Assembly (NCBI RefSeq): GCF_017875395.1
Contig: NZ_JAGGMO010000001.1
Span: forward strand, 248,001 to 312,000
Length of the DNA: 64,000 nt
Reading direction: 5' to 3'
DNA from: Methanococcus voltae
GTDB taxonomy: Archaea; AGJL01; Methanococci; Methanococcales; Methanococcaceae
Shown: positions 7,833 through 16,264 of the stretch, piece by piece
How positions within the stretch are numbered: position 1 is the first letter of the stretch
Layout of the letters: every line of letters starts with the position of its first letter
Position numbers and translations under genes: made by a program
Notes under the pieces: generated by a model
Database searches by the model: none
The model's input: the letters and a program-made list of their open reading frames with translations, nothing else
What the model was told of the DNA's origin: nothing

Positions 7833-8344
7833 ATATATTTTAAAAATTGTTATATAACATGTAACAATTATAATTAAAGTTAATCGAATTCAATTTTTGT
7901 TTAATAAACTATGACATCAAAAAAGTGTTGAAATTAATTATAATTAATTATTTTTGTCAGTATATATTTTACCAATATTTAAATTTTAAAATATGATGCA
8001 GATTAAATCATAATATAATTATAATACTAGAAATAAAATAAATATTGATGTTAATTTTAGTACATGATATTAACATTCACCATTAATAAGTCGAATGTAA
8101 AACCATTTAAAAAGGTAATTAATTTAGTAAAAAAATCTTTAATTAAATTAAAGAGTTTTTTAATTGTATTTTTAAATATTAACGTCATTTTGCTTATTAA
8201 TGAAATGGAAAGTAATATATATCATATGATTAAATAATATTTGAATAGTTAACGCCATTAAATGTTTAAAGAAATGTTTAACGAATTCTTAAAATATTTA
8301 ATTAACAAATAGCCAATATTACCTTAATCAATGAGGTGAAAGAA
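7833..8344 (+). promoter_or_regulatory. mcr-mtr intergenic region with mtr promoter
   Basis: About 500 bp of AT-rich DNA separates the mcr terminator from mtrE. The best promoter candidate is TAATATATAT at 8213-8222, giving a leader of roughly 100 nt before mtrE. The ribosome binding site GAGGTGA is at 8333-8339. No ORF or stable RNA structure was recognised in the rest. Confidence 0.5.
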
Positions 8345-9253
8345 ATGGATCCAACATTATTAACCCTTGGAGCCCTAGCCTTGGCAGGTGCTGCCGCAAC
8401 TGTTTCCGGTTGTGCAGAAGACTTAGAATCTGATGTAGGTTCACAGTCTAACCCTAACTCTCAGGTGCAATTAGGTCCTCAAATGGGTAACATACACAGA
8501 TATTTCAACAAAGCTATCTCCGGTGAACCTGTATCCTACGGTTTATACGTAGCAGTTGCAGGAGCTGTAGCATGGGCTTTAATGAATGGCGGATACAATC
8601 CAATCTTAGGTTTAATAGTAGGTTCAGGAGTAGGTGCAATTACACATGGTGCATATTCATTGAGCGCATACTTAGGTAGAATTGTAGGTCAGTCCAAAAA
8701 CTTTAACCAACCAGTATACATGGACGTTATAAGTACACACATGGGTCCTATGATGGGACACGGTTTTATAGCAATTTTCACTATGTTATTAGCAGCTTAC
8801 TTAGCTACATTAGCATTAGGTAATCCATTCCCATTGCCATTGGTAGCTTTAATCTTCGGTATCACAGTTGGTGCTATCGGTTCATCAACCGGTGACGTTC
8901 ACTATGGTGCTGAAAGAGAATACCAAAAATACGCTTTCGGTGGTGGTATTCCTGTTGCTAACCAAGGTGACATTGATATTAAAGCAGAAACTGGTATTAG
9001 AAATGGTTTAGATTCATCATACTTCTGTTCAAGACTCGGAGGTCCATTAACTGGTCTCTGTTTCGGTTTAATCATCTTCTTAGATGGTTGGAGAACCGTT
9101 ACTGGTAACATTATCGGTGACTTGATGGGTGCAGACCTTGTTATGAAAGCAGTCATTGCAATTATATTAGGTACATTACTAGTAATTGGTGCTGCGATAA
9201 TTAACAGAAAAGTAGAAGTATATGCAAGAAACAAGTACGGGCCATACAAATAA
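8345..9253 (+). CDS. mtrE: Methyl-H4MPT:coenzyme M methyltransferase subunit E
   Basis: The product is a 302-residue integral membrane protein beginning MDPTLLTLGALALAGAAATVSGCAEDLESDVG, the MtrE signature. It has about six hydrophobic segments. MtrE, MtrD and MtrC form the membrane part of the MtrA-H complex, which couples methyl transfer from tetrahydromethanopterin to coenzyme M with sodium export. A GTG at 8336 is in frame but lies inside the ribosome binding site, so ATG 8345 is chosen. It is the first gene of the mtr operon. Confidence 0.97.
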   Translation: MDPTLLTLGALALAGAAATVSGCAEDLESDVGSQSNPNSQVQLGPQMGNIHRYFNKAISGEPVSYGLYVAVAGAVAWALMNGGYNPILGLIVGSGVGAITHGAYSLSAYLGRIVGQSKNFNQPVYMDVISTHMGPMMGHGFIAIFTMLLAAYLATLALGNPFPLPLVALIFGITVGAIGSSTGDVHYGAEREYQKYAFGGGIPVANQGDIDIKAETGIRNGLDSSYFCSRLGGPLTGLCFGLIIFLDGWRTVTGNIIGDLMGADLVMKAVIAIILGTLLVIGAAIINRKVEVYARNKYGPYK

Positions 9254-9275
9254 TTAATAAAGTAATGGTGATAAT

Positions 9276-9986
9276 ATGGATATTTCAAGTATTATATTAC
9301 CTCTTGTTGAAATCACCCTTGCAGGAGCAATTATTAACGCAAGTGTTCACTTTGTTCCAGTAGGTGGTGCACCAGCTGCGATGGCTACTTCAACCGGGGT
9401 AGGTACCGGTACAACTCAGTTGGCTGCAGGTGCAGGTTTCACAGGTTTATTAGCGGCTGCAGGAATGGCTGCACAACCTGGCATAATGATAAGCAACCCA
9501 GTTCACGCACTCTTGATTATGTTATCAGGTGCTGTTGGTGCTATGATTATGTTAGGATTAACTATGTTAATCGGTCAGTTAATTTACGTTTACGGTGTTG
9601 GTATTGTACCAGCAGCTGATAAATGTGATGTTGACCCTATCACAAAAGACCCACAAAGTGCATTTATCACACCAGGTACAACTGGTCACGGTATTCCAAC
9701 AGTTTGTTTCGTTAGCGGATTAATCGGAGCAGCTTTAGGTGGAATCGGTGGAGGAATGGCTTATGTAGGTCTTTTAGGATTAGGATTTACAATACCTGCA
9801 ATTGCGGGAGTATTAGCAATTGGATTCTTCTTCATGAATGCAGTTCTTGCTTCATACAACATTGGTGGTACCATTGAAGGTTTCCACGATCCTAAATTTA
9901 AGAAAATGCCTAATGGAGTTATTGCTTCGACAGTGTCATCATTAGTTGCAGCTATAATATTAATAGGAATGTCAATGGGACTTTAA
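9276..9986 (+). CDS. mtrD: Methyl-H4MPT:coenzyme M methyltransferase subunit D
   Basis: The product is 236 residues, very hydrophobic and rich in Gly and Ala, starting [20 protein letters not shown]. Several membrane segments cover most of its length. It is one of the three large membrane subunits of the sodium-pumping MtrA-H complex. It starts 22 bp after mtrE with GGTGAT just before the ATG. Confidence 0.97.
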
Positions 9987-10008
9987 TTAAAAATTATGAG
10001 GTGTAATT

Positions 10009-10800
10009 ATGTCACATGGTGGCGGAGGACACGCAGCAGAACTATTCCCTGAAACTCAAGTTCTCGGGATTGGTCTTGTATTATCATTAGTTGGAATGTA
10101 TATTGCAAACTTTCTTCCAGAATATGCAATGTTAATAGGTGGAGCATTAACTGTTCCAGCGTGTGTAGCGGGAGCTAACACAACAAGAAAAGTAGCAGCA
10201 TACGGTTTAGGTACCGGTGTTCCTTCAATTGGTATGGTAAGTTTAGGTATGGGTACATTATCAGCACTTGCAGCGGTATATTTACCAGTAGCATTTGGTA
10301 TTGATTCAATGGCTACACCGATAATTGCAGTTATTGTATCATTAGCAATTGGTGCGATTGTAGGTAAGTTAACACAAAACCCTGTAGGTATGAAAGTACC
10401 TATTATCGTATCAAGTATGATAAAATTATCATTAATGGGTGCTTTATCAATTTTGGGATTCTGTACTGCATTTGCAGGCGGATTTTCAGCAAACGTATTT
10501 ATTCCAGGTGCAATAGAAACAGGAATGATTGGTTTAGCATTTATTGCAGCAGGTATTGCAATTTTACACCCATTCAACGCATGTTTAGGACCTAATGAAA
10601 GTCACAGAAGAACAATGTACCTTGCAATTGCTTGTGGTTTATTAGCATGGTTAGTATTCGCAATCTCAAAATTAGATGCAATATCAACTGTTATCTCAGC
10701 AGTGTTATGGGTTGCTACATATGCTATGTTTGTAAAAATGTCTTTGAACGATGCTTCAGATGTTTTATACACACCAGAATTGCCTAAGAAAGAAGAATAA
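10009..10800 (+). CDS. mtrC: Methyl-H4MPT:coenzyme M methyltransferase subunit C
   Basis: The product is 263 residues starting [20 protein letters not shown], with repeated hydrophobic segments and a short charged C-terminal tail. It matches MtrC, an integral membrane subunit of the sodium-translocating methyltransferase. GAGGTG precedes the ATG. The gene lies 22 bp after mtrD and 9 bp before mtrB. Confidence 0.97.
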
Positions 10801-10809
10801 GGTGATAAA

Positions 10810-11136
10810 ATGGAAATTGTTAAAGTATGTCCCGATATAAATGTAGTATTGGACATCGATACAGGTTTAATTGCAGAAATGAGAAAAGATATTCTTGTTA
10901 CTGATTTAAAACCTGTTTCAGCAGAAATAGAACAATTAGAAAAACTTGCGATAGCATTGGAAAATTCATTAGACCCAAGAAACGCACCAATGAAATCATA
11001 CGCTGGTAGAGAAGGTACATACAAAACTGGTGGTTTATTCCAAGGTATGTTCTTCGGTTTCTGGATTGCCTTGTCAATTTTAATGCTCGCAGTATTCTTA
11101 ATCATTAAAACGGATTTAAGCCTAATCGGTCTCTAA
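10810..11136 (+). CDS. mtrB: Methyl-H4MPT:coenzyme M methyltransferase subunit B
   Basis: The product is 108 residues, starting [19 protein letters not shown], with a soluble N-terminal part and one C-terminal membrane anchor ([20 protein letters not shown], about residues 79-98). This is the MtrB architecture. GGTGATAAA precedes the ATG. It lies between mtrC and mtrA as in other Methanococcus mtr operons. Confidence 0.96.
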
Positions 11137-11153: not shown

Positions 11154-11644
11154 GGAGGTGCTAAAATATGGCAGATAAAAAAGCCCCTGCAGCAGGATGG
11201 CCTGTTGCTAATGGTGAATATGTTGTAGGTAATCCTGAAAGCTGTGTAGCTGTTGTTACATTGGGTTCACACGGATTAGATGAAGCAGCTATCGAAGCAG
11301 GTGCAGCTATCTCAGGACCTTGCCACACAGAAAACTTGGGTATTGAAAAAGTTATTGTTAACTACATTTCAAATCCTAACATCAGATTTATGGTTGTGAC
11401 AGGTTCAGAAGTTCAAGGACACATTACAGGACAATGTTTCAAAGCTCTCTATGAAAACGGAATTGGTGACGATGGTGGTATTATCGGCGCTAAAGGAGCT
11501 ATTCCTTTCATGGAAAACGTTGGAAAAGAACCAGTTGCAAGATTCCAAAATCAAATCGTTGAATTAATTGATATGATTGATTCAGAAGATAAAGGAAAAA
11601 TTCAACAAACAGTTAAAGACTGTATCTCCAAAGACCCTGGTGCA
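11154..11644 (+). repeat. First copy of a 491-bp identical duplication (mtrA 5' region)
   Basis: The segment runs from the ribosome binding site GGAGGTGCTAAAAT through codon 157 or so of mtrA. It matches 12162-12652 base for base at an offset of 1008 bp. Similarity continues patchily for another 60 bp after the end. The bases before position 11154 differ from the second copy, so the boundary sits exactly at the ribosome binding site. Confidence 0.95.
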
Positions 11645-11896
11645 TTCGAAGAAGAAGCTATGGTTATAGACCTTGAGGGTAAAGCAGGCGGAGCTGGAGA
11701 AGAAGAAGGTTCATCAGTTAAAATGACATCCCCAGAAATGGCAATTATCGAATCAAGAATGAGAATCATCTCAAAACAGATCGAACAAGCTGCAATTGTT
11801 AACAAATACAACTCTGGATACTATAACGGTAAAATCCAAGGTATTGCAATAGGCTTATTCTTGTCACTTCTCATATACAGTATGTTATTAATCTAA
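11168..11896 (+). CDS. mtrA: Methyl-H4MPT:coenzyme M methyltransferase subunit A (cobamide carrier)
   Basis: The product is 242 residues. The N-terminal domain of about 170 residues binds the 5-hydroxybenzimidazolyl cobamide. H85 in [10 protein letters not shown] matches the known cobalt-ligand histidine (His84 in the Methanothermobacter protein). A charged linker and a C-terminal membrane helix ([22 protein letters not shown]) give the standard MtrA architecture. It receives the methyl group from MtrH and passes it to coenzyme M. The first 491 bp including the ribosome binding site are identical to the next gene, and the two diverge after DPGA (residue 159). Confidence 0.97.
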
Positions 11897-12161
11897 TTAA
11901 ATAATTTGATAGTTATTTATTAGAGATTTATTATTAGTTTATATTAGATTATATTAACTTATGATAAATAGATAAAATAATGATTATTGATTATTAATTA
12001 ATAATGATGAATTTAAACACGAATTGGTATCTAGCTAGGTTAGATAATTAATAATTACTGTGTAATAATTAATAATTATGTTAAATTACCAATTAAAACG
12101 TTGAACTTAAAATAAATTAATATGTAAATTCTAAACCAAACCAAAACATATATGCCTTCCA
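11897..12161. other. 265-bp gap inside the mtr operon
   Basis: An unusually long AT-rich non-coding gap separates mtrA from the second mtrA-containing gene. Other mtr genes are 9-47 bp apart. It contains many attaataatta-like stretches and a weak TATA-like acatatatgcc at about 12147-12157, too close to the start to serve as a normal promoter. It does not match the 31 bp in front of the first mtrA. It may be the remnant of a duplication or recombination event. Confidence 0.6.
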
Positions 12162-12652
12162 GGAGGTGCTAAAATATGGCAGATAAAAAAGCCCCTGCAG
12201 CAGGATGGCCTGTTGCTAATGGTGAATATGTTGTAGGTAATCCTGAAAGCTGTGTAGCTGTTGTTACATTGGGTTCACACGGATTAGATGAAGCAGCTAT
12301 CGAAGCAGGTGCAGCTATCTCAGGACCTTGCCACACAGAAAACTTGGGTATTGAAAAAGTTATTGTTAACTACATTTCAAATCCTAACATCAGATTTATG
12401 GTTGTGACAGGTTCAGAAGTTCAAGGACACATTACAGGACAATGTTTCAAAGCTCTCTATGAAAACGGAATTGGTGACGATGGTGGTATTATCGGCGCTA
12501 AAGGAGCTATTCCTTTCATGGAAAACGTTGGAAAAGAACCAGTTGCAAGATTCCAAAATCAAATCGTTGAATTAATTGATATGATTGATTCAGAAGATAA
12601 AGGAAAAATTCAACAAACAGTTAAAGACTGTATCTCCAAAGACCCTGGTGCA
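12162..12652 (+). repeat. Second copy of the 491-bp identical duplication
   Basis: This segment is identical to 11154-11644, starting at the ribosome binding site and ending where the two proteins diverge. No mismatch was found on line-by-line reading. Identity at synonymous sites implies a recent duplication or ongoing gene conversion. Confidence 0.95.
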
Positions 12653-12937
12653 ACAGATGAAGAAGCTATGGTTATAGACCTTGAGGGTAAAGCTGGTGAA
12701 GCAGGAGAAGATTCAGGCGATGGTTTCGCTATCGAAGGTATCCCTACTGTATCAGAACCAGACCTTGAATATATAAGGAAATTAAACGAAAGTCTCGACT
12801 ATAAAGTGGGCCTAACTACAAGAGATTTAGGTCTTGCTTCTGGAGTTCAGTCTGAAAGCCTCACCGGTTTATTATATGGTATGATGTTTGCATTAGTATT
12901 CGTTGCAATACCATTAATATTAAAAATTGGATTTTAA
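12176..12937 (+). CDS. mtrF: MtrA cobamide domain fused to MtrF-like tail
   Basis: The product is 253 residues. Residues 1-159 are identical to MtrA, including cobalt ligand H85. After an acidic linker, residues 191-253 ([21 protein letters not shown] to the end) look like a complete MtrF: a charged region with YIRKLN and TTRDLGL, then one membrane helix ([21 protein letters not shown]). The gene occupies the mtrF slot between mtrA and mtrG, and no separate mtrF exists in the window. It would therefore give the Mtr complex a second cobamide domain on the F subunit. Domain assignment of the tail is by recognition and position. Expression as a fusion is inferred. Confidence 0.85.
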
Positions 12938-12984: not shown

Positions 12985-13209
12985 ATGGCTGAAATTCCTA
13001 CAGTAATAACACCAAACAAGGAATTCAAAGAATTACAGAAAAAACTTGACGAAGTTGAAGATAGAGTTGAAAGAACAAATGCTGAAATCTTCCAAAGAAC
13101 AGGTCAAAAAACAGGAAGAGATGTAGGTATTGTACTTGGTTTCGCAGTTGGAACCGTTTTATTATACTCATTAGCAGGAGCTTTGCAGTTCTTCAATCTT
13201 ATAAAATAA
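12985..13209 (+). CDS. mtrG: Methyl-H4MPT:coenzyme M methyltransferase subunit G
   Basis: The product is 74 residues starting MAEIPTVITPNKEFKELQKK. A charged, probably helical segment (about residues 10-42) is followed by one membrane helix (GIVLGFAVGTVLLYSLAGALQFF). This is the MtrG layout. GGTGAT precedes ATG 12985. It lies between the mtrA-F fusion and mtrH in canonical order. Confidence 0.95.
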   Translation: MAEIPTVITPNKEFKELQKKLDEVEDRVERTNAEIFQRTGQKTGRDVGIVLGFAVGTVLLYSLAGALQFFNLIK

Positions 13210-13230
13210 CATTGTTACAGAGGTGGAATA

Positions 13231-14190
13231 ATGTTCAAATTCGACAAAGAACAGGAAATTATTGAATTAGCTGGTGCAAGATTTGGAGGACAACCAGGAG
13301 AATGTCCTACCGCATTATCCGGTACCATATTTTACGCAAGACACAAAATTGTAGAAGATCCTAAAAAAGGTATCTTCGATAAAGCTGCTGCTGAAGAATT
13401 AATCAACAAGCAAGCTGAAATGCAAGATATCACAGGTAACTCAGCATTAGTACAAGTATTCGGTGGTTCAGAAGAAGCACTCGTTAACTATATTGACTTC
13501 GTAGCTGATGTATGGGACGGACCTATGTTATTGGACTCAACATCCGGTAAAGCAAGAATGGCTGCAGCTACAAGAGCTACAGAAGCTGGATTTGCTGGAC
13601 AATGTGTTTACAACTCAATCAACGTTTCAATGGACGAAGAAGAGTTCCAAAACTTAGTTGAAAGTGACCTTGAAGCTTCAATCGTTTTATGTTTCGACCC
13701 AATGGACCCTTCAGTAGAAGGTAAATTGAACGTTTTAAACAACGGTGGTAAAACAGCTGAAACAGGTATGTTAGAACTCGCTGAAAAAGCAGGTATCAAA
13801 CACCCATTAATTGACGTTGCTGTAACCCCTATGGGTAACGGTGCAGGTCAAGCTGTAAGAGCTTCATTTGCTGTTAAAGCAAAATTAGGTTTACCAGTAG
13901 GTAGCGGTATACACAACATCCCATCAGCATGGGACTGGTTAAGAGAATTCAGAAAAGGATTAAGAGAAAACGACAAAGCACAGTTATCAAAAGACGTACA
14001 CCACGTATGTGACATTGGTGCTAACATTGTACAAACAATGGCTTCAGGAGACTTCGTTCTCTACGGTCCAATCGACAACTCAGAATTAGCATTCCCAGCT
14101 GTTGCAATGACAGATATGATTATTGCTGAAACCGCTAAAGATTTAGGTACAACACCTGATGAGAAACACCCATTAAACAAATTAATTTAA
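13231..14190 (+). CDS. mtrH: Methyl-H4MPT:coenzyme M methyltransferase subunit H
   Basis: The product is 319 residues, soluble, starting MFKFDKEQEIIELAGARFGGQPGE. MtrH is the catalytic subunit that moves the methyl group from methyl-tetrahydromethanopterin to the cob(I)amide on MtrA. It belongs to the TIM-barrel pterin-dependent methyltransferases, visible here in DPMDPSVEGK and LIDVAVTPMGNGAGQAVRAS. GAGGTGG precedes the ATG. It ends the mtr operon and is followed by T-rich and A-rich sequence. Confidence 0.97.
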   Translation: MFKFDKEQEIIELAGARFGGQPGECPTALSGTIFYARHKIVEDPKKGIFDKAAAEELINKQAEMQDITGNSALVQVFGGSEEALVNYIDFVADVWDGPMLLDSTSGKARMAAATRATEAGFAGQCVYNSINVSMDEEEFQNLVESDLEASIVLCFDPMDPSVEGKLNVLNNGGKTAETGMLELAEKAGIKHPLIDVAVTPMGNGAGQAVRASFAVKAKLGLPVGSGIHNIPSAWDWLREFRKGLRENDKAQLSKDVHHVCDIGANIVQTMASGDFVLYGPIDNSELAFPAVAMTDMIIAETAKDLGTTPDEKHPLNKLI

Positions 14191-15232: not shown

Positions 15233-16264
15233 CTATATGTTGAATAATCTTTTAGTTTGGGAATATATAAGTTTAGCTATATTAATTAAGTTATTATCTT
15301 GATTAATTATTTGATTGCCCATATCATTACATGAAATATCTAGATTATTACTGTTAATATTATTACTATTGGTAATAGTATTACTATTGTTACTATTGTT
15401 ACTATTGTTATTATGATTATTCTTATTTCTAATAGTATCTAATTTATTGTTTATATTATTAATACCGTTGCAATTATCTTTCTCATCATTCTCATCATTT
15501 AATAAATTATAAATTTTTCCAAATTCATTTACTACTAACCTTACATTTGAAGGCTCATTTTGTTCCCCTTTTATTGGCGATACAAACGGACTATCGGTTT
15601 CAGAAAGAGTATTCTTAAATAAATCCATATCATAAATACTCAATAACTCTTTTATTAAATTTTTATGATATTCTGAAAAACACAACTGTGTTGAAATTGA
15701 GATATAATTATCATTATCTATTAATTCTTTTGCTAGTTGATTACTTCCACTAAAACAGTGATATATAATTCTTATATCATTTTTGGTAATTTCATGTATT
15801 ATTTTGTACGCTTTATCTTCAAAACCTCTCGCATGAATGACTACAGGCATATCCAATTCTTTTGCTAAAGTTAAGTATTTTCTAAATATTTTTTCCTGCT
15901 TATCCAAATCGGCTTGACTATTTATCCCACTATCGAGACCTATTTCACCAACTGCCACTATTGAATCTTGATTTTTCTCAATAAACTTATATGTGTCCTC
16001 AATTACCTTCCAATCGGATTTTACCCTAGAAGGGTGGTACCCCATTGTAATATTGATATCTTTGGGATATTTAGTTTTTAAATCGAGTGCCCTTTTACAT
16101 CCACCTAAACTTTCGCCACTAGTAATCATTTCTACATTGTTATCGATTGCACCGGTTATCAATTCATCCCTATTTTTTAATCGCCTATATTCCATGTGGC
16201 AATGTGCATCGATATATCCCATATTTTTATTTTTATTTTTATTTCCATTATCCATCACTTTCAA
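15233..16264 (-). CDS. TatD-family metal-dependent hydrolase with Asn-rich insert
   Basis: The product is 343 residues. TatD motifs are in order: DAHCH (H21, H23), GEIGLD (E107), VVIHARG (H144), YHCFSG (H169) and ETDSP (D224). These metal ligands define the TatD DNase/amidohydrolase family. Between about residues 257 and 325 a low-complexity Asn/Ser-rich insert interrupts the C-terminal helical part, which resumes as IAKLIYSQTKRLF. Another Asn/Lys stretch sits at the N-terminus. The start is a TTG at 16264 behind GGTGA. An ATG at 16255 and an ATG just before GYIDAHCH are alternatives. The substrate is unknown, and TatD proteins are usually 3'-5' nucleases. Confidence 0.88.
   Translation of the reverse strand: MKVMDNGNKNKNKNMGYIDAHCHMEYRRLKNRDELITGAIDNNVEMITSGESLGGCKRALDLKTKYPKDINITMGYHPSRVKSDWKVIEDTYKFIEKNQDSIVAVGEIGLDSGINSQADLDKQEKIFRKYLTLAKELDMPVVIHARGFEDKAYKIIHEITKNDIRIIYHCFSGSNQLAKELIDNDNYISISTQLCFSEYHKNLIKELLSIYDMDLFKNTLSETDSPFVSPIKGEQNEPSNVRLVVNEFGKIYNLLNDENDEKDNCNGINNINNKLDTIRNKNNHNNNSNNSNNSNTITNSNNINSNNLDISCNDMGNQIINQDNNLINIAKLIYSQTKRLFNI

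Follow-up and report, generated by a model that had tools for sequence, protein, structure and literature searches.

The mtr locus of Methanococcus voltae raises the question of how two neighbouring genes of one operon came to be identical over almost half a kilobase, and what the second of them does. The window analysed here, a 64-kb stretch of DNA, holds a complete mtr operon in the order E-D-C-B-A1-[A2F]-G-H, with all genes on the + strand. Profile matches place mtrE, mtrD, mtrC and mtrB at 8336..11136 and mtrG and mtrH at 12985..14190. Between them lie mtrA-1 (11168..11896), encoding a 242-aa protein with cobamide domain, linker and stalk/membrane anchor (PF04208, E 2.5e-80; TIGR01111, 364.9 bits against a cut-off of 249), and mtrA-2a (12176..12937), encoding a 253-aa protein in which a cobamide domain is fused to a complete MtrF (PF04208, E 1e-79; PF09472, E 2.5e-18). 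A self-comparison of the window revealed that positions 11154..11644 and 12162..12652 (both + strand) are identical at 491/491 bases, at a spacing of 1008 bp. The tract opens with the ribosome-binding site (GGAGGTG) and closes with the final codon of the KDPGA motif; 3' of it, four mismatches in six bases are followed by 35 further identical bp. The shared 5' end occurs twice in the window, where none would be expected by chance, and no third copy of the tract was found elsewhere in the 64 kb. An additional MtrA copy outside the locus is ruled out by the PF04208 domain count of exactly two in the genome.

In the fusion protein, the MtrA domain (PF04208) covers residues 4-175 and the MtrF domain (PF09472) residues 188-249, corresponding to profile positions 1-62 of 62. 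A second MtrF model (TIGR02507, 79.5 bits against a cut-off of 25) matches residues 188-251 (12737..12928, + strand) over positions 1-64 of 65. The MtrF part thus spans the full PF09472 profile, including the stalk/membrane helix, in one reading frame with the MtrA domain. Residues 1-170 match the solved structure of an MtrA domain (5l8x, E 1.1e-88), with further matches to 5laa, 8q3v and 9qtq. The cobalt ligand of MtrA has been identified as His84/His85 (PMC4915002, PMC12774963), and residue 85 lies within the motif GSEVQGH in both copies (codons at 11420..11422 in mtrA-1 and 12428..12430 in the fusion, + strand). The first-pass annotation of this DNA had claimed the exact 491-bp identity, the retention of H85 in both copies and a C-terminus of the second gene resembling a full MtrF; all three are confirmed, and its coordinates and protein lengths are right. 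Its proposal that the complex gains a second tethered cobamide domain also holds up, with PF04208 and the full MtrF in one frame and cobamide binding predicted. The influence on methyl transfer or sodium coupling that it put forward is conjectural.

We consider the second gene to be an old mtrA-2a fusion that occupies the place of mtrF, is homogenised with mtrA-1 by gene conversion and probably provides a working second shuttle; the probability of this explanation as a whole is put at about 0.9. The arrangement itself has been known since 2015, when Wang et al. found that Methanococcales have two mtrA genes, one of which (mtrA-2a) is fused to mtrF (PMC4632066). The mtrA domains within each species were near-identical (mean 99.7%), which was attributed to gene conversion (PMC4632066). 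Whether the fusion had been recorded for related strains, a question left by the first-pass annotation, is answered by the same study, as its taxa include Methanococcus voltae A3, M. maripaludis and M. vannielii. In M. maripaludis, both mtrA paralogs are essential, according to Sarmiento et al. 2013 as cited in PMC4632066. The second gene of the window is this known mtrA-2a: the fusion is in one frame and at the same operon place, the paralogs are closer to each other than to their orthologs, and the genome is that of a member of the Methanococcales.

A survey of 36 genomes of the order recovered the mtr locus in 31, and the DNA of each locus was read. An MtrA-MtrF fusion was present at the same operon place in 20/31 loci, in both families of the order. 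A full MtrA-1 together with the fusion was found in 11 loci (including the window), an anchor-only MtrA-1 with the fusion in seven, MtrA with a stand-alone MtrF in 11, and a fusion for which no MtrA-1 was seen in two. One of the latter, G034 (about 120 contigs; L011:1109-2214, operon orientation), has mtrB directly followed by the fusion, and may represent collapse of an identical repeat, since its one-contig sister G035 has both copies. In the other, G001 (single contig; L014:304-1525, operon orientation), two copies of mtrB flank a C-terminal fragment of mtrC, and a search for the MtrA-1 anchor found none anywhere in the genome; the partial duplication upstream is either a real rearrangement or an assembly error. 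The stand-alone MtrF of G029 (L022:1581-1814) starts with a fusion-like linker (MTNGEEGSSIKGIPTV) and has the ribosome-binding site GGAGGTGCT upstream, and looks like a fusion minus its MtrA domain. A contig of a MAG named Bacteroidales (L085, JASGMZ010000055.1) encodes a 90%-identical Methanococcales MtrA, which is likely a contamination of the MAG.

Comparison of the copies within and between genomes revealed concerted evolution. Of the 11 genomes carrying both copies, 10 have paralogous domains that are distinguished by 0-2 of 477 sites (0/477 in the window); comparisons between genomes yield as many as about 130 differing sites. Differences between genomes are, almost without exception, common to both copies; against the window, this applies to 1/1 sites in G019, 7/7 in G020, 74/74 in G017, 89/89 in G033 and 119/119 in G002. 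Relative to G020, the window shows 1.5% divergent sites in the domains, against 9% in the MtrA-1 anchor region and 11% in the MtrF region. In a phylogenetic tree, paralogs pair within genomes, and the grouping of all fusion copies as one clade is rejected (AU test, p-AU 4.9e-52). The sharing of differences by both copies, the pairing within genomes and the AU rejection together mean that the identity is maintained and not recent in origin. The fusion is therefore old. Recurrent gene conversion between it and mtrA-1 keeps the cobamide domains identical, whereas the anchor, linker and MtrF regions drift apart. The last homogenisation in the lineage of the window may have been recent, an event that a tract of 477 sites cannot date. 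In G016 (L008:853-1572 and 1589-2350), the two MtrA domains have diverged at 53 of 477 sites; conversion has possibly stopped in this lineage, and homogenisation of the mtrA domains is thus not obligatory.

The first-pass annotation had offered very recent duplication or gene conversion as causes of the identity. Gene conversion is borne out by the paralogs evolving in concert, as seen in both the shared differences and the tree. Its main reading, a recent duplication and fusion particular to the strain or species, would account for 491 bp being wholly identical, synonymous sites included. However, both families of the order have this fusion at an identical position, and it was published in 2015. 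The close relatives G019 and G020 carry it with the tract bounded at both ends as in the window, and the reading would require 11 independent recent duplications that all share one fusion point. The conserved fusion and the concerted changes rule this reading out, and we give it next to no probability. The same can be said of an assembly artefact, in the form of a false join or a repeat expansion. Exact repeats of 0.5 kb do break or collapse short-read assemblies, and several Methanomicrobiales contigs end inside mtrA, but the same arrangement is present in the single-contig genomes G015, G018, G022, G033 and G035. Further, the two copies are separated by a unique spacer with a homologous counterpart in G019 and G020, which, together with the single-contig relatives, rules out an assembly join. 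Assembly error and strain-specific duplication are thus both excluded by the fusion in 20/31 loci (single-contig chromosomes included), the near-identity of the paralogs and the tree test.

The spacer between mtrA-1 and the fusion (11897..12175, + strand) is 279 bp long and 81% AT. Its length is 266-297 bp in the two nearest relatives and 7-40 bp in most others. No Rfam match to an RNA element was found in it. The last ~60 bp are better conserved than the remainder, and an internal promoter is possible. Elsewhere in the window, a TatD-family nuclease gene (15233-16264; TIGR00010, slightly under its cut-off) contains a long asparagine-rich low-complexity insert near its C-terminus, the coding DNA of which is a 9-bp-periodic repeat.

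In Mtr complexes, MtrA, MtrB, MtrF and MtrG form a stalk, and the cobamide domain is carried on a flexible MtrA linker (PMC10998594, PMC12774963). At its cytoplasmic end, this stalk has the N-terminal segments of MtrA and MtrF as direct neighbours (PMC10998594), so that a domain placed on the N-terminus of MtrF would start from nearly the same point. The tethers are also alike in length: from the end of KDPGA (residue 159) it is about 28-30 residues to the start of either anchor, near residue 187 in MtrA-1 and 188 in the fusion. The fusion protein most likely fills the MtrF place in the stalk and, with its tether next to that of MtrA, most likely provides a second functional cobamide shuttle. 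Such a shuttle would take the methyl group from MtrH and hand it over to coenzyme M in MtrCDE. If each protomer contains one MtrA and one MtrF, a trimer would have up to six cobamide domains, not three, although some Methanococcus Mtr complexes may lack a full complement of MtrA or of the fusion. Alternatively, the second domain might have only a structural or dosage function and take no part in catalysis, with conversion merely stopping its drift. This is improbable, as His85 and the surrounding motif GSEVQGH are kept in every domain-bearing copy surveyed, seven genomes yielded no MtrA domain other than that of the fusion, and mtrA itself is fused to a copy of mtrF in TACK archaea, Methanoliparia and ANME-1 (PMC9982363).

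The seven genomes concerned are relatives from one neighbouring genus (clade support 100/100), in which the gene at the mtrA-1 place has only 106-127 codons (L013:827-1210, L015:911-1294, L017:1089-1421, L018:1214-1534, L019:1205-1528, L020:1181-1513 and L021:1145-1465, operon orientation). This anchor-only MtrA-1 lacks the cobamide domain and keeps the ribosome-binding site, linker and stalk/membrane helix; its match is confined to the C-terminal part of the MtrA model. In each of the seven, the domain fused to MtrF is the sole PF04208 domain detected, and the assembly of one member, G028, consists of a single 1.5-Mb contig. In G026 and G030, the anchor-only gene still starts with the initial residues of the former domain, from which an origin by internal deletion appears likely. 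A frameshift is ruled out, since the gap between mtrB and the short gene is only 10-30 bp and leaves no room for the domain. Among the anchors, median pairwise dN is 0.04 against a dS of 1.3, with several dS values saturated, which points to purifying selection. Since the rest of the mtr operon is complete in this clade, all methyl transfer presumably runs through the domain tethered to MtrF. The anchor-only clade thus strongly suggests that this domain is catalytically competent and, to judge from the lineages without an MtrA-1 domain, it would be able to suffice. No description of the clade was found in the literature examined, although it may still have been reported.

The linker of both copies may also be a substrate for connectase. 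This reversible protein ligase cleaves the Asp-Pro bond of the MtrA linker; its recognition site consists of KDPGA and the next ten residues, and the reaction swaps prime-side partners (PMC10154401; PDB 6zw0 for the connectase structure). Based on this motif, recognition sequences are predicted in mtrA-1 (11630..11674, + strand) and in the fusion (12638..12682, + strand). The connectase gene (PF09894) is present in the genome of the window and in 33/36 genomes of the order. No earlier mention of a connectase site on both MtrA copies was found in the literature examined. With the whole site in both copies of the window, an exchange of domains between the MtrA and MtrF anchors is conceivable in chemical terms.

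The site has come apart into its two halves in the anchor-only clade. The fusion keeps KDPGA, and its prime side carries acidic residues (TEEDAEEIDL) where it is otherwise hydrophobic. On the anchor, the segment PGAxDE(E/D)PMILDLEGG is invariant except at two positions, over varied, synonymous codons, and Asn, not Asp, directly precedes PGA; at positions -16 to -5 before this segment, 0/12 columns are invariant. This pattern suggests a separate role for the linker segment, be it in connectase action, MtrH binding or another function. In G016, MtrA-1 has SQDPDA in place of KDPGA.

As an addition to the old, conversion-homogenised fusion, and not as an alternative to it, connectase might re-ligate at KDPGA and thereby make both copies one exchangeable pool. 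The sites on both copies, the distribution of PF09894, the reversibility of the reaction and the prime-side segment kept on anchors, with synonymous change and with no conserved columns upstream, all speak for such a pool. On the other hand, the M. jannaschii connectase has been called inactive (PMC11745163), and with Asn before PGA on the anchor and an altered prime side on the fusion, the anchor-only clade may contain no good substrate in either protein. On balance, we regard the pool as rather unlikely. Somewhat more doubtful is the wider proposal that the Methanococcales cobamide domain is not bound to one anchor at all. Here, the MtrF copy would be a full carrier, one clade would have dropped the MtrA-borne domain while keeping anchor and prime side, and connectase would move the domain between anchors post-translationally. 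If true, a core energy-converting enzyme would be assembled by protein ligation.

The finding is an instance, already in the literature, of gene conversion that has gone on for a very long time, and it concerns the enzyme behind the sodium pumping of methanogenesis. One order also offers a natural experiment, with relatives that have two cobamide domains, an MtrA-borne domain only or an MtrF-borne domain only. This allows one to ask how many shuttles an Mtr complex requires, which anchors are usable and what purpose connectase serves. The arrangement itself is of modest interest; the parts worth following are the anchor-only relatives and their parted connectase site.

Several known systems can be compared with this locus. 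The mtrA-1/mtrA-2a pair of Wang et al. matches the window in its fusion and operon place, in the near-identity of its domains alongside differing membrane parts, and in concerted evolution through gene conversion; nothing of substance differs (PMC4632066). The anchor-only mtrA-1 clade, found among the relatives surveyed here, is without description in that study. In mtrA-2b of Methanomicrobiales, a second MtrA domain is likewise joined to one of the small stalk proteins and undergoes homogenisation with mtrA-1, but the partner is MtrG instead of MtrF, and the origin is independent (PMC4632066). Most of 60 genomes of Methanomicrobiales, the order of G036, have two PF04208 domains. The operons EDCB[AF]FGH of TACK archaea, Methanoliparia and ANME-1 resemble the window in the fusion of mtrA to an mtrF copy; however, they contain a single mtrA plus a separate mtrF and belong to another lineage (PMC9982363). 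Lastly, the connectase-MtrA pair (PF09894; PDB 6zw0; PMC10154401) acts on KDPGA and ten further residues, a sequence present in both copies of the window, whose genome also encodes connectase. That pair is known with one MtrA anchor, whereas the window has two possible anchors.
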